Source of the DNA: Acidobacteriota bacterium
Lineage (GTDB): Bacteria; Acidobacteriota; Thermoanaerobaculia; Multivoradales; J023
Length of the DNA: 64,000 bases
Assembly: GCA_029263395.1 (NCBI GenBank)
Contig: JAJCXO010000018.1
Coordinates: 62,001-126,000, forward strand
Reading direction: 5' to 3'
Shown here in pieces: positions 6,365 through 23,726 of the stretch; the stretch's first letter is position 1, and each line of letters begins with the position of its first letter. Below the pieces are notes generated by a model, which made no database searches, was not told the DNA's origin, and worked only from the letters and a program-made list of their open reading frames with translations. The position numbers and the translations under genes are program-made.

Positions 6365-8662
6365 TTGAAGTCCAACGCCCTATTCTTGTTCGCTGCCTTG
6401 GTTGTCAGCTCAATGCTCAATGTTCCTGCGGTCGCATCAGGACCGGCAAACGGCGTCCTATGTGTTGCCAGCGGCGGCACCAATACATTGCCGACGCAAG
6501 CCGTTGACTTGACCGTCGCAAGCCCGAAGGCGGGTCCGCAGCTGTCGTTCGTCTCTGGTGGTAAGCCCAACGGTGACTCCTATCACCGACGTCTCGTCGC
6601 GAAGGGAAAAACTCTCAAGATGCAACTGGACCTCATCGGCCCTGTGTTGCCGATTGGCCATGGCATCGTGCTGACTCTCAACCCAATTTACGCACCAAAA
6701 ATAGTCAGTGGATCGGGGGTATCGATCCTGTTCAATGGCACCGAGGTCTTGCCCTACACCCCCGATACGAATGTGAGCCAACGAATCACCTTCAGTATCT
6801 CGCCTGAGTTCATCAATCTCAACAAGATCAACACCATCTCGATTCAGGCAACAACCACCCCATTCCTGATTGGCTCCCTCGGTGTTGGCCAAGCCAATGT
6901 CTTCCTGGACCTGGACCAGCCGGCTCCTCCCGATACCGTCGCACGCCTACAGCCTGATTGGGACTTGTTCTCATGGAACACCTTCGTTGCCATGAACTGG
7001 CCAGCGACCCTTCCGCAAATGAAGAACAAGTATCAGCGAGGCTTCCCGAACATCCATGAGGATTTTGCGAGTTACTCCTGTAAAGACAACTCATGTGACG
7101 AACATCCCGTGGTGTGGGAAACCTACAAGGAGAAACGTGAGATGTTTCTCCATCAAGACCACCGACCGCAGAATGCGCAGTGCACGGACCCGAACGACAA
7201 GAGTGTGATACCTGACAAGTGGAACAGTCCATTCCAGTACGGGGCAGATCGCACGATGTACGGTCCAGCCAAGTTTGCCACCCTCGACGAGACCGTCCAG
7301 GTGTCGTCCGAGGCGCTCGAGCCGGACTCGAAGTTCTTGCACAAGGCCGTCGTGCCGCGAGTTTTCCGTGGCAAGCCGGCGAACTTCAGCCCCGGCGACC
7401 CCGGCAATGCGGTGCGTTACGAAGTGAAGGTGAACTACGATTTCTACGACTATGTCATGGCCAACCAGCTGTATTGCGACAGCGTGACCCACGCGCGAGC
7501 CAAGCAGAGGCCACCGGTCCAACTACCGTGGCGGACGAGTCGACCCGATCCACAGGTGCTGTTCCTGACCCAGAAGCCAGCGGTCACCCCCTACGTCCAA
7601 GGGTATTCGGCGATCGACACATCGGCAGACTATGCCAACGCTAAAGAGGGCGACGTGCCGCCCAAGATCGGCTCGATCCACCTCAAGGCCGCTTGGGTGC
7701 CCATCACCGACAAAGAGGCTGCCTCCGGCAGGTATCTGTGGCGCGAGGCCACCTATTTTCAGGGCGCCAAAACGCCCCAGCCGGAATCTGCCAAGTTTGG
7801 CCTGATCGGGCTCCACATCATCCAGCGGATCAAGAACGGCCCGGGCGCCAACGGGCTGCTCAACAGCAACCCGATCGGCGGCACGTTCATCTACTCCACT
7901 TGGGAGCACGTCGATGTCGACCCGGTGGCTTACGGCCAGCACAATCCAGTCACCGGAGAGGTCAACCCGGCCTACTACTACACCAATTTTCACAACCAGG
8001 GCGGCAACTTTGTGCCCGACAAGATCTGGAAAGTGACCAGACTGTACGGCGAGAGAGACAAGGATTACAACGCCGAGTTCTATGGCACTCTGGTCACCAC
8101 ACAACAGGTCAATGCCGGAGTCCATGCCGCGATTCGAGCCCAGAACCAGGACTCTGTCTGGCTCAACTACAACTTGGTCGGAACACAATTCATCGCCGCC
8201 GATGCCACCGAGGACATCAACCCCACGACAGAACCGGTCAAGGCAGCAGCACAGAACAACTGTTACGGCATGCCGGTGTTCCTGGCTAATTTGATGATCG
8301 AGACCAACCGCGGTCTACAACATTTTCAAGGTCTACCACCCGGTGCTGGCCCGCCCCACGTCACCCCAACACCGTCTCAATTCGAGGAACTCGGTTATCG
8401 CGACGAGTCCAACACCAAGGCGACGTTCAACAACACCCTGAAGTTTCTGCGAACCACCCAAAGTGACCACGGCGCCAGCCCCCACCTCTCCAACTTGGGT
8501 TATGGCTACAAGGGTTACAACATGGGAGGCTGTATGGGTTGCCACGGTGTCGCCCAGTTGCAGGGTTACTCCTTCAGCTTTGTGCTCCTCGGCGGCCAGG
8601 CCGGCGCCGATCCGGACACGGAGAGGCATTTCCTGGCGCCGCTATCCAAGCCACCCCAGTAA
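6365..8662 (+). CDS. Secreted protein with a C-terminal CxxCH heme motif
   Basis: Function not recognised. The preferred start is TTG at 6365, because AAGGAGAAGAG (6350-6360) lies just upstream and the product then begins with a clean signal peptide (KSNALFLFAALVVSSML, cut near AVASG). The 765-residue product has no membrane segment after that. An N-terminal strand-rich part of about 200 residues is followed by a large domain rich in Trp, Tyr and Asn with several Cys (for example SCKDNSCDEHP). Near residue 723 is CMGCH, a c-type heme attachment site, only about 40 residues from the end. That gives a large domain plus one heme, in the periplasm or exported. It stands alone behind a strong promoter; an electron-transfer or oxidase role is only a guess. 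Confidence 0.75.
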   Translation: MKSNALFLFAALVVSSMLNVPAVASGPANGVLCVASGGTNTLPTQAVDLTVASPKAGPQLSFVSGGKPNGDSYHRRLVAKGKTLKMQLDLIGPVLPIGHGIVLTLNPIYAPKIVSGSGVSILFNGTEVLPYTPDTNVSQRITFSISPEFINLNKINTISIQATTTPFLIGSLGVGQANVFLDLDQPAPPDTVARLQPDWDLFSWNTFVAMNWPATLPQMKNKYQRGFPNIHEDFASYSCKDNSCDEHPVVWETYKEKREMFLHQDHRPQNAQCTDPNDKSVIPDKWNSPFQYGADRTMYGPAKFATLDETVQVSSEALEPDSKFLHKAVVPRVFRGKPANFSPGDPGNAVRYEVKVNYDFYDYVMANQLYCDSVTHARAKQRPPVQLPWRTSRPDPQVLFLTQKPAVTPYVQGYSAIDTSADYANAKEGDVPPKIGSIHLKAAWVPITDKEAASGRYLWREATYFQGAKTPQPESAKFGLIGLHIIQRIKNGPGANGLLNSNPIGGTFIYSTWEHVDVDPVAYGQHNPVTGEVNPAYYYTNFHNQGGNFVPDKIWKVTRLYGERDKDYNAEFYGTLVTTQQVNAGVHAAIRAQNQDSVWLNYNLVGTQFIAADATEDINPTTEPVKAAAQNNCYGMPVFLANLMIETNRGLQHFQGLPPGAGPPHVTPTPSQFEELGYRDESNTKATFNNTLKFLRTTQSDHGASPHLSNLGYGYKGYNMGGCMGCHGVAQLQGYSFSFVLLGGQAGADPDTERHFLAPLSKPPQ

Positions 8663-16982: not shown

Positions 16983-17108
16983 CTGCCAGAAAACGATCCA
17001 GGAACTTAACCCTCGCAGGCTTTGGCAGAGTTGAGGGCCATGCTCTCTCTATCGGCGAGAACGAGCTGCGAGACGTTAATGGTAAACTGTTGACGGAGGA
17101 TTTGTGTG

Positions 17109-17432
17109 ATGCAGCTTGCGGACACTCTGCTTCAGAAGATTGTCGGACGTATGCTCGAGGTTGGCCAGCCCGACCGAATCATCCTCTTTGGTTCGGCGGC
17201 GAAGGGGCAGATGACCCGAGACAGCGACATCGATTTACTGGTGCTCGAAGCCGCGCCAAAGCAGCCGCGACAGAAGAGTGTGAGGCTGCGAAACGCACTC
17301 CGCGGTTTGGGTTACCCGTTCGATGTCATGGTCATGGCTACCGAGCGGTTCGAAGAGACAAAGGAGATCATCGGTGGCTTAGCCTACCCGGCACACAAAT
17401 ATGGGCGAGTGATCTATGAAGCCTCCGGATGA
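17109..17432 (+). CDS. MNT-type nucleotidyltransferase (antitoxin-like)
   Basis: Minimal nucleotidyltransferase of 107 residues with the complete active site: GS at 28-29, D40 and D42 in DSDIDLLV, and a third acidic residue D72 in FDVMVM. In HEPN-MNT pairs such proteins neutralise the HEPN partner, by AMPylation in the MntA-HepT case. GGAGGA (17095-17100) lies 8 bases before this ATG; the GTG at 17106 is too close to it. The 3' end overlaps the HEPN gene by 17 bases. A toxin-antitoxin role follows from family knowledge and was not shown here. Confidence 0.88.
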   Translation: MQLADTLLQKIVGRMLEVGQPDRIILFGSAAKGQMTRDSDIDLLVLEAAPKQPRQKSVRLRNALRGLGYPFDVMVMATERFEETKEIIGGLAYPAHKYGRVIYEASG

Positions 17433-17852
17433 GGTACGCAGAGACCTGGTTCAGCAGTGGTTGCAGAAGGCTGAGGAAGATCTCGGCGTCGCTGATCTGC
17501 TGCTAGCTCAGCATACGCCGTATCTTTCGGCTACTGGATTCCACCTGCAACAGGCGGTGGAAAAGTTCCTCAAAGCCTTACTGGTTCGCCATCAAATAGA
17601 ATTCCCGAAAACCCACGACCTAGGGAAACTCCTCGATCTCCTGACTTCCGTGGAGGCACCCCTAGTCGAAGCTCTGGAGAGTCTCACGGGCTTGAACACT
17701 TATAGCGTCGAAGCTCGCTACCCAGGAGATCTGCCTGTGGTGAGCCGGGCAGAGGTCGAGGAAGCTCTGCAGCTGACTCGAGAGGCGCGAGAGAAGGTAT
17801 TGGCGGTCCTGCAGCCCCTCCCGCCTGCTGCGGGAAGGGCTGCCAAAGACGA

Positions 17853-17856
<4 letters not shown>
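17416..17856 (+). CDS. HEPN-domain protein
   Basis: A 146-residue all-helical HEPN protein paired with the MNT gene. It has the core FHLQQAVEKFLKALL, a following KTHDLGKLLDLL and the terminal segment YSVEARYPGD. The usual HEPN RNase motif R-x4-6-H is not visible; the closest arrangement is R58 to H67. It may therefore be non-catalytic, or belong to the subgroup using other residues. The stop overlaps the convergent M28 peptidase gene by 4 bases. It could be a toxin, or a substrate-presenting partner for the MNT enzyme. Confidence 0.85.
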
Positions 17857-20940: not shown

Positions 20941-21010
20941 AGATCAAGCTAGCCAGGTGGCCTCCAAATATTAAATGTGACCGTCATCGCCTCGCAGGTA
21001 CTCTCCAGAC

Positions 21011-21496
21011 ATGGACCTCGAATCGACCCTCGGTGAGCTAGCACCGAGACTGCTGCGTTACTGCCTCGGCCGGACCGCAAGTCCGCAGTTGGCGGAGGAG
21101 AGTGCGCAGGAAGCCCTCACCGCGTTGGTGGCGCGTTGGCGGCACCATGGTCCACCCGACTCGCCAGAAGCCTTCGTGTTTGTCATCGCTCGACGCCGAC
21201 TGCAACGTCAGATCTTGCGCCAGCGCTGGCTCGAGCCACTGGAACGGGTGATGGACGGTCGCAGTCCTCGTCCCGATCCGGAGTCGTCTCTGATGGCACG
21301 TTCGGACCTACAACGTACCCTCGGTGCCCTCGATCGACTGCCAAGTCGGCTGCGCGAGGCGATGTTGTTGGTCGCTGCTGGCGAGCTCGATACCGACAGT
21401 GCCGCTGGTGTGCTCGGTATCTCGACGTCCGCTCTCAAGATGCGTGTCCATCGGGCGCGCAAACAACTCGGCAAGCTGCTGGAGGAACGCCCATGA
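21011..21496 (+). CDS. RNA polymerase sigma factor, ECF type
   Basis: A 161-residue two-domain sigma factor. Region 2 is visible as ELAPRLLRYCLGR through AEESAQEALTALVARW and EAFVFVIARRRLQRQ. Region 4 is LDRLPSRLREAMLLVAAGEL followed by the helix-turn-helix ISTSALKMRVHRARKQL. It has no extra C-terminal domain. Its stop overlaps the next gene as ATGA. With the one-TM protein and the STN-repeat protein it forms a three-gene coupled unit, which suggests envelope signalling. No obvious ECF promoter was found upstream. Confidence 0.9.
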   Translation: MDLESTLGELAPRLLRYCLGRTASPQLAEESAQEALTALVARWRHHGPPDSPEAFVFVIARRRLQRQILRQRWLEPLERVMDGRSPRPDPESSLMARSDLQRTLGALDRLPSRLREAMLLVAAGELDTDSAAGVLGISTSALKMRVHRARKQLGKLLEERP

Positions 21497-21900
21497 AACC
21501 GTCCTCGGCTGATCAAGATCCCAAAGCCCATAACTCGAACGATGTCGATGCGCTGCTGCGTCGCGCGCTCGATAGCGACTCTATAACCGGTCAGCGCGCC
21601 GCCGACCGCATCGTCCGTGCTGCGCTCGACTCGACGGAACGGTCGCCAGAACGTCGTCCGGCCTGGCGTCTGGCAACTGTTGCCTTCGGTGCCGCCGCGG
21701 TCGCCGCATGGCTGGTCTTGACTCCCGCCCGCTCTCCAGGCCCAGACCTGACGGCACCACCCGTCGAGTACGCGGAACCGCGCTCCCGTTCGATCGCCCT
21801 CGAAATCACCAATGCCGACGGCCCAATCATTGTTTCGGCAGCTGCTGGCTCAAAAATTGTCCTACTACCGACCGTTCCCCTAATCGGAGGTGCCTCATGA
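21493..21900 (+). CDS. Single-TM protein, candidate anti-sigma factor
   Basis: A 135-residue protein with an N-terminal cytoplasmic part of about 57 charged residues (including DALLRRALDSDS and AADRIVRAAL helices), one TM segment (about 58-77) and about 55 periplasmic residues (ALEITNADGPIIVSAAAGSK). No zinc-binding HxxxCxxC motif is present, so it is not a ZAS-type anti-sigma factor. Position and topology still fit a membrane anti-sigma or FecR-like regulator. ATGA overlaps at both ends tie it to the sigma factor and to the STN-repeat protein. It has no family I recognise. Confidence 0.75.
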   Translation: MKPSSADQDPKAHNSNDVDALLRRALDSDSITGQRAADRIVRAALDSTERSPERRPAWRLATVAFGAAAVAAWLVLTPARSPGPDLTAPPVEYAEPRSRSIALEITNADGPIIVSAAAGSKIVLLPTVPLIGGAS

Positions 21901-23726
21901 CCAAGCCTTGTGTTCGTTTCAACCGACTCGCCAGTTTGCTGTGCTGCCTCGCTCTTGGTTTGTCGTCAGCCCCGACCGTCACCGCCTCCCAACTGGATCC
22001 TGATGAGCTGATCAACCTGGAGCTCGAGCAGGCGGATCTAGTGGAGACGCTGAAGTCGTTCGCCCAAATCAGTGGCAGTTATCTCGACATCGAACCGTCG
22101 GTCCGGGGCAAGGTCACTCTCTCCCTGGAGGCTGTCAGTTGGACCGATGCCATCGACCAGATTTGCACCGAACACCAACTCAACTGCGAAATCTCGAGCG
22201 GCGAGTCCTCGGTGGTACGAGTGCGCTCGGCAGCAGCGGGGGCCGGTGCTACCTCGATCCCGGGATACGTCGAAGCGATCAGTCTGGCGCTCAAGTCCGC
22301 CGATCTTCGGCAGACCCTGCAAGCCTTCGCCGTAATCACGCAGCGTGACGTAGTGATCGACGATGGTGTCAGCGGCACAGTGACGATCAATATCGGTGCC
22401 GCCCCGTGGTCGGTGATTCTGGAGGAGATCTGCAACCTCGCGGGTTGCGAGATCGAGTGGGGCCAGACGCTCCATATCCGTTCCGTCAACCCACCAAACA
22501 AAGCTAAGCGCGCCAACCTAAGCCTTGCCGACGCATCGGTCGAAGCAGCAGCCGAGACGTTGGTTCAGATGCCGATTTTTGGATCTCTCGGGCGCCCAGA
22601 GGTCCAACTAGCCGAGGATCTCACCGGCACCGTCAGTCTCGAACTCGACGATGTCAACTGGCTCGAGGCCATGAACCAATTGTGTGAGGCTGCCGATTGT
22701 GTTTGGAAGTTGACCTATGGGGACCCCACTCGGATCGACATCAAACCGAGGGATCGGAGCCCTGAGCGTCAGGTTGAGTTGCCACATCAGCCGATGCCCT
22801 TGAACGAAGCTATCCACTTACTGGCCGACTTGCTCGGGCTTGAAGTCGACCTCCGTCAAGGCCTAGATCATCTGACTGAGGTCCGCTTTCCCAAGTCACC
22901 TGCGATCTGGCACGACGCCGCAAAAGACATCTGCAAACAAGCGGGTTGCTGGCCGGTGGTCGAGGATAAAAAAATGACGGTCAGCCCCCGGGTCAAGCCC
23001 CTCGCTGACCGCCCCACCGCCGGTGCCCCAGACCGACGGGTGGCGGTACGCTTTCAGTCACCCACCGCATCATTACCGACCGTGGGTGCGGTTCGTTTCA
23101 ACTGGACGTCACCGATCCACACCTTGGAAAGTAGCGCCGTCGACAGCAGCGACCAGGATCGGTGGATGGCACGGTTGAGCTGGATCCCATTCGGTCCCGA
23201 GCAGCATTGGGTGGCACCGACGATGATCCACTGTTCTGCCAACGGCAACACCGTAGACCTGCTGGCACCATTTGCGGTGCCTCAGGACGATCCACAGAGC
23301 CGACACTGGCGTGGCTCGATGGTCGAGCTCTCGAGCCTCGACGATGAAGCCCCCATCCTGGCCAAGACCCGGCACGGCAAAGAGTGTGCGGGGACCTCGA
23401 CCAAAAACTACGTCGAAGCCACGTTTCATCGAGCTGGCGGAAGGGGCACGATTTCCACCCTCGACCTGCATGCAAGGATCGGCAACTATCTGTTGGTCAC
23501 CCCTCCCGGTGGCAAAAAACGACCGACACCGATGGCTGCATTGATGGCCCTTGGTCCCGATACCAGCGGCCAACAACGGGTTGCCCTGCTGCGGCCGACC
23601 GCCGACGGAGCGACCGTCGATATCGAACAGCTTGAGGTGCCACCATCTGGCATCGTCGCGGCCACCTTGAAGGCGCCGGACGGTAGCGAGTACGAGTTGG
23701 CAATGCGCTTCGTCACTAAAGAGTGA
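21897..23726 (+). CDS. Periplasmic protein with four STN-like repeats
   Basis: A 609-residue exported protein. Signal peptide about residues 1-30 (LASLLCCLALGLSSAP). Then four repeats resembling the secretin/TonB short N-terminal (STN) domain start near residues 39, 127, 206 and 293. Each has the pattern of a strand pair, a helix such as LVETLKSFAQISG, GxVxLxL strands, a second helix and a final strand. Each repeat carries a Cys pair at the same place: C90/C97, C179/C184, C263/C268 and C346/C351, probably disulfides. Residues 380-609 are strand-rich with no known domain. No secretin or TonB-dependent barrel follows, which is unusual for STN. It is coupled by ATGA to the TM protein, so it may sense a ligand for the sigma factor. 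Confidence 0.75.
   Translation: MTKPCVRFNRLASLLCCLALGLSSAPTVTASQLDPDELINLELEQADLVETLKSFAQISGSYLDIEPSVRGKVTLSLEAVSWTDAIDQICTEHQLNCEISSGESSVVRVRSAAAGAGATSIPGYVEAISLALKSADLRQTLQAFAVITQRDVVIDDGVSGTVTINIGAAPWSVILEEICNLAGCEIEWGQTLHIRSVNPPNKAKRANLSLADASVEAAAETLVQMPIFGSLGRPEVQLAEDLTGTVSLELDDVNWLEAMNQLCEAADCVWKLTYGDPTRIDIKPRDRSPERQVELPHQPMPLNEAIHLLADLLGLEVDLRQGLDHLTEVRFPKSPAIWHDAAKDICKQAGCWPVVEDKKMTVSPRVKPLADRPTAGAPDRRVAVRFQSPTASLPTVGAVRFNWTSPIHTLESSAVDSSDQDRWMARLSWIPFGPEQHWVAPTMIHCSANGNTVDLLAPFAVPQDDPQSRHWRGSMVELSSLDDEAPILAKTRHGKECAGTSTKNYVEATFHRAGGRGTISTLDLHARIGNYLLVTPPGGKKRPTPMAALMALGPDTSGQQRVALLRPTADGATVDIEQLEVPPSGIVAATLKAPDGSEYELAMRFVTKE

Follow-up and report, generated by a model that had tools for sequence, protein, structure and literature searches.

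ECF sigma factors are a main bacterial route of envelope sensing, and signaling through STN domains is known mostly from iron-transport receptors. In a 64,000-nucleotide stretch of an Acidobacteriota genome (contig JAJCXO010000018.1, positions 62,001 to 126,000; hereafter the window), an ECF sigma gene is followed by genes for a one-TM protein and for an exported protein with an array of STN domains, raising the question of whether the three form a signaling module and what part the array would play in it. A preliminary description, made from the sequence, had reported three genes joined by ATGA overlaps, and our gene calls agree: both junctions are 4-bp ATGA overlaps (Table 1). The interval given for the locus, 21011-23726, holds all three genes, but omits the promoter that precedes them. 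The sigma factor consists of sigma-70 regions 2 and 4, with neither region 1 nor region 3, and also lies above the cut-off of NCBIfam sigma70-ECF. Elsewhere in the window (17106-17856) is an overlapping pair of MNT nucleotidyltransferase-like and HEPN-like genes, which resembles a toxin-antitoxin pair.

Table 1. Features of the sigma/one-TM/STN-array operon, in window coordinates.
Feature	Position	Strand	Residues	Remarks and basis
Promoter-like element GTGACC-N14-GGTAC	20977..21001	+		9 nt before sigma start codon; motif in 16/16 homologues
Sigma gene	21011..21496	+	161 aa	ECF-type sigma factor; Pfam Sigma70_r2 and r4_2 above cut-off
One-TM protein gene	21493..21900	+	135 aa	Probable anti-sigma factor; AlphaFold, kept in 15/15 trios
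TM helix of one-TM protein	21661..21720	+	57-76	AlphaFold
Periplasmic beta-strand tail of one-TM protein	21799..21864	+	103-124	Predicted
STN-array protein gene	21897..23726	+	609 aa	Exported; Pfam, AlphaFold, structure comparison
STN repeat 1	22008..22229	+	38-111	C90/C97; Pfam STN/N0 match and fold
STN repeat 2	22278..22484	+	128-196	C179/C184; Pfam STN/N0 match and fold
STN repeat 3	22512..22748	+	206-284	C263/C268; fold only, no Pfam match
STN repeat 4	22788..22988	+	about 298-364	C346/C351; fold only, no Pfam match
All-beta C-terminal region	23034..23708	+	380-604	AlphaFold; no known family

The third gene product starts with a hydrophobic leader, in keeping with the signal peptide attributed to it earlier. 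We modeled this protein with AlphaFold using six homologues as input, and obtained four beta-alpha-beta-beta-alpha-beta units followed by an all-beta region (mean pLDDT 70, pTM 0.41, values at which the relative placement of the domains is unreliable). Structure comparison matched each of the four units to solved STN/N0 domains with Z scores of 8-10.8; the matches include EscC, PilQ, GspD, DotD, the BDI_1681 anti-sigma factor, FpvA, a PupR/PupB entry and FecA, as well as the GspC-GspD complex 3oss. The preliminary description had proposed four STN-like repeats and a strand-rich C-terminus, to be abandoned if structure prediction showed the repeats not to be STN-like; four STN folds were found instead, only the first two of them recognizable by sequence, together with the all-beta region. 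Likewise, Pfam finds no secretin domain, plug or TonB barrel in the protein, as had been stated, and a truncated secretin or TonB transducer is ruled out by the lack of barrel and secretin domain. The C-terminal 240 aa gave zero Pfam matches, and no relative of the all-beta domain was found by sequence. This domain occurs in 6 of 147 class genomes, always within the STN protein of the operon and in no other protein of those genomes; since it is missing from most homologues, it cannot be a general sensor.

When a profile of 26 repeats was searched against PDB sequences, the N0 domains of PilQ and HofQ were the nearest solved sequences, whereas the FecA/FpvA signaling domains were absent at E 1. 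This proximity suggests that the STN repeats are probably derived from a secretin-type N0. Such a relationship could extend to function, with the array joining the ring that N0 domains form in a PilQ-type secretin, where it would report on or assist type IV pilus assembly, and with the sigma factor answering to the state of the secretin. N0/STN domains are reported to associate mutually (PMC11637429), and the nearest sequences are those of PilQ and HofQ; however, the likeness may reflect ancestry only, and the loci read have no pilus or secretin genes beside the operon, so that we consider a role in pilus assembly improbable.

Each repeat of the window protein carries a pair of cysteines at exactly the positions listed in the preliminary description, and in the model one of the two lies, in every repeat, where helix 2 ends and the other in the strand that follows. 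Counted by eye over 42 repeats from 16 STN proteins, both cysteines are present in 39 repeats and neither in 3 (repeat 2 of G323 and both repeats of G335), and a single cysteine at these positions was never seen. This all-or-none pattern is the one that a disulfide would give, and we regard the pairs as putative disulfides.

The middle gene encodes a protein that had been described as having one TM segment and no zinc anti-sigma motif. Its AlphaFold model shows two N-terminal helices (residues 12-49), one TM helix and three short strands within a predicted periplasmic part of ~60 aa, and its sequence contains zero cysteines. Both statements therefore stand, and a zinc-binding anti-sigma factor (ZAS, HxxxCxxC) is ruled out. 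In all its homologues an N-terminal part of ~50 residues precedes the TM helix, and a variable linker connects the helix to a short tail rich in strands. Compared with class I anti-sigma factors, the protein offers two predicted helices within ~50 residues and no family match: no Pfam family matches it, those of known anti-sigma factors included, NCBIfam gives a sub-threshold match only, and a FecR or STN domain was matched in 0 of 13 one-TM proteins. The placement of the gene between the sigma and STN genes, the topology of its product and the correlation of its distances with those of the sigma factor (see below) suggest that the one-TM protein is probably an anti-sigma factor.

We then asked how widely the three genes occur together. 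A search of seven genomes in the family turned up long relatives, with 30-68% identity, in another four, all adjoining the same sigma and one-TM genes, and an STN-profile search of a phylum sample added three more trios from other families of the order. A scan of contigs gave four loci, all already in the set; the relatives are Acidobacteriota/Thermoanaerobaculia MAGs. The sigma profile, which separated sharply, was positive in 15 of 149 class genomes, with one match apiece, and gave two additional matches in other classes of the phylum. The trio is intact in 15 of these 17 sigma-positive genomes, that is, in 14 besides the host, across 11 families of Acidobacteriota, and all 15 intact loci encode the sigma, one-TM and STN genes, usually with 4-bp overlaps (at the TM-STN junction, in 11 of 13 measured class trios). 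Of the two others, G417 has a contig edge directly after the sigma gene, and G377 (L101, G377:C258, about 7646-7969) has a shortened sigma gene that lacks its partners and precedes a PAS/histidine-kinase gene, an apparent decay of the module. A lack of conserved linkage had been named as the finding that would argue against a shared system; linkage was present in every intact locus, and the recurrence of the trio in 14 other genomes is not due to chance. Outside the genus the flanking genes vary, indicating that the trio is the conserved unit, and a four-gene operon was rejected because the loci read have no conserved fourth gene.

Protein distances are correlated between the sigma factor and the one-TM protein (r = 0.71), between the one-TM and STN proteins (r = 0.53), and between the sigma factor and the STN protein (r = 0.43), values reached by 0, 0 and 11 of 5000 permutations, respectively. 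Co-inherited partners would be expected to give such correlations, but common ancestry alone would give the same. The number of STN repeats is 2, 3 or 4 across loci, two being the commonest: three occur in G389 and, with the last one degenerate, in G005, and four in the genus, G002 and G006. The four-STN array first described is thus real in the window, but it is one elaboration of the design. G006 has two STN genes in tandem; in an operon with such a tandem (L034 5685-6374 and 6398-8239), they encode a two-repeat protein and then a four-repeat protein with the C-terminal domain. Separately, in three genomes of the family a single-STN exported protein adjoins a molybdopterin oxidoreductase gene (L036, L037 and L038; G006:C7, G005:C167 and G003:C467).

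Upstream of the sigma gene, the motif GT[GT]AC[AC]-N14-GGTAC is present in all 16 readable sigma loci with an unvarying spacing and at a distance of 9-12 nt from the start codon (for G005 and G449, counted from the upstream ATG to which the motif itself points). A conserved two-box motif with this N14 spacer has the form expected of an ECF promoter, suggesting that transcription of the operon is driven by its own sigma factor and yields an almost leaderless message; judged by this motif, the operon is very probably autoregulated. The host genome contains six other exact copies, five inside long open frames and the sixth near a contig end (L136) with no convincing gene, and a reversed-pattern control gave four matches there, so that the extra copies are at about chance level. 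Across 14 genomes, an exact-motif regulon search returned 1-11 sites per genome, with a single site in G454, G417 and G474, and the 20 extra exact sites inspected lie mostly within coding sequence or have no convincing gene downstream. The exact-motif search supports no further target of the sigma factor, and weaker sites may exist.

An operon bearing the only convincing promoter copy in the host leaves the STN-array protein as the sole known non-regulatory product, and here lies the strongest rival explanation, namely that this protein is the output of the system. Envelope trouble would then be sensed by the sigma factor together with its partner in the membrane, and the STN protein would be induced to serve in periplasmic binding or repair, a role that variable repeat number and an optional C-terminal domain would suit. 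On the other hand, STN domains are known contact modules of anti-sigma signaling, the prevalence of the 4-bp TM-STN overlap suggests a stoichiometric partner, and the promoter counts as the only one by exact motif copies. Hence we consider the output role a possible but unlikely explanation.

The preliminary description took STN domains to belong to TonB-dependent transducers and secretins and saw in the locus a free-standing periplasmic signaling system that could not be named. STN domains do occur in those proteins, but they also end FecR-type anti-sigma factors, such as PupR (PMC7186176) and those of ECF-FecR pairs in the host. The kind of system, moreover, can be named from VreA of the Pseudomonas PUMA3 system, a periplasmic STN protein that stands alone and whose gene adjoins one for an ECF sigma factor (PMC2729926), although signaling by the trio itself is our interpretation. 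With VreA as precedent, the idea of an STN protein standing alone in an ECF operon is not a novelty. The trio resembles VreA-VreI-VreR of Pseudomonas aeruginosa in its exported barrel-free STN protein, its ECF sigma gene with a 4-bp overlap and its one-TM regulator. However, VreA has one STN domain and a TolA/TonB-like C-terminus, whereas the proteins described here have 2-4 STN domains with Cys pairs; VreR is of the FecR type and encoded in another transcription unit, whereas the trio forms one operon with no detectable FecR domain; and vreA was not induced by VreI, whereas the trio has a sigma-type promoter of its own. That the trio belongs directly to the Vre/PUMA3 family, its one-TM protein being a shortened FecR, is very improbable: a standalone STN protein and overlapping genes as in vreA-vreI speak for it, but no FecR match was obtained, the periplasmic part measures ~60 aa instead of about 200 (PMC7186176), the gene order differs, the repeats are several and carry Cys pairs, and the STN domains are closer by sequence to secretin N0 than to transducers. 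We rejected membership for want of a FecR domain and for the different source of the STN domains, and retain PUMA3 as an analogy.

Systems of the FecI/FecR/FecA type, such as PupB-PupR and FoxA-FoxR, share with the trio an ECF sigma factor, a one-TM regulator and a periplasmic STN domain of the same fold. In them, the FecR-type anti-sigma factor is bound by the STN domain of a transducer; such binding stabilizes PupR (PMC7186176), and the FoxA STN shields FoxR against proteolysis when the signal is absent (PMC11637429). In contrast, the trio has no TonB-dependent receptor, neither a FecR nor an STN domain is detectable in its regulator, and its STN domains reside on a separate secreted protein. 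The N0 domains of the secretins PilQ and GspD are the nearest sequence relatives, and a small periplasmic beta domain binds N0 in GspC-type partners, but the trio has no secretin pore, is coupled to a sigma factor and has a Cys pair in nearly every repeat. GspC, a one-TM protein whose small periplasmic beta domain binds secretin N0, offers a physical model for a contact between the one-TM tail and an STN domain. The host also encodes FecR-like proteins with an STN-like C-terminal domain (L002, L005 and L006). In two cases an ECF sigma gene is adjacent, and such ordinary two-gene systems may show the origin of the split arrangement. The trio looks like the ECF-FecR arrangement split into a short-tailed regulator and a separate, multi-copy secreted STN protein. 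Elsewhere in the phylum STN domains occur on a different type of sensor in the membrane, as STN-like repeats in the C-terminal part of BlaR1-like M56 peptidases (L001, G000:C62, 1231-2850, minus strand; L070, G259:C16, 5951-7789, minus strand).

We favor, with a probability of roughly 0.55, a self-contained ECF module in which the one-TM protein is the anti-sigma factor and the STN array is its dedicated periplasmic partner. In this model, the N-terminal helices of the one-TM protein would hold the sigma factor, its C-terminal beta-strand tail would sit in the periplasm, and the exported array would bind this tail through one or more of its STN domains, shielding it against proteolysis by analogy with FoxA/FoxR. 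An envelope signal would release the tail, leading to cleavage of the anti-sigma factor; the freed sigma factor would start transcription of the operon at the GTGACC-N14-GGTAC promoter, and newly made anti-sigma factor and array protein would reset the switch. The occurrence of the trio in 15 loci, the correlated distances, the STN folds, the TM topology, the invariant promoter-like motif and the precedents of VreA/VreI/VreR, PupB-PupR and FoxA-FoxR all argue for the module. Against it stand a one-TM protein that matches no known anti-sigma family and whose cytoplasmic part is very small, and an STN protein that could be the output, as the promoter motif marks no other target. A more speculative extension, which we regard as rather doubtful, is a split-FecR design in which the STN module, usually the end of the anti-sigma factor, would have turned into an independent secreted array with disulfide-bonded Cys pairs, and in which the redox or folding state of the periplasm would set how well the array shields the tail. 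If true, this design would be a branch of ECF cell-surface signaling gated by disulfides and independent of a receptor.

In the literature, we found no description of the trio, nor of an ECF group with an STN-array partner; its distribution was traced within Acidobacteriota. What is new is the STN array with paired cysteines, the regulator without a detectable FecR domain, the union of all three genes in a single operon under an invariant promoter, and the spread over 11 families. Known cell-envelope signaling systems seem to have in the trio an undescribed relative, one that needs no outer-membrane receptor. As a compact, phylum-wide module in which the STN domain apparently acts free of a receptor, it would offer a clean test of how STN domains act on anti-sigma factors, and together with its predicted promoter it would provide a new sigma-promoter pair from a poorly studied phylum.
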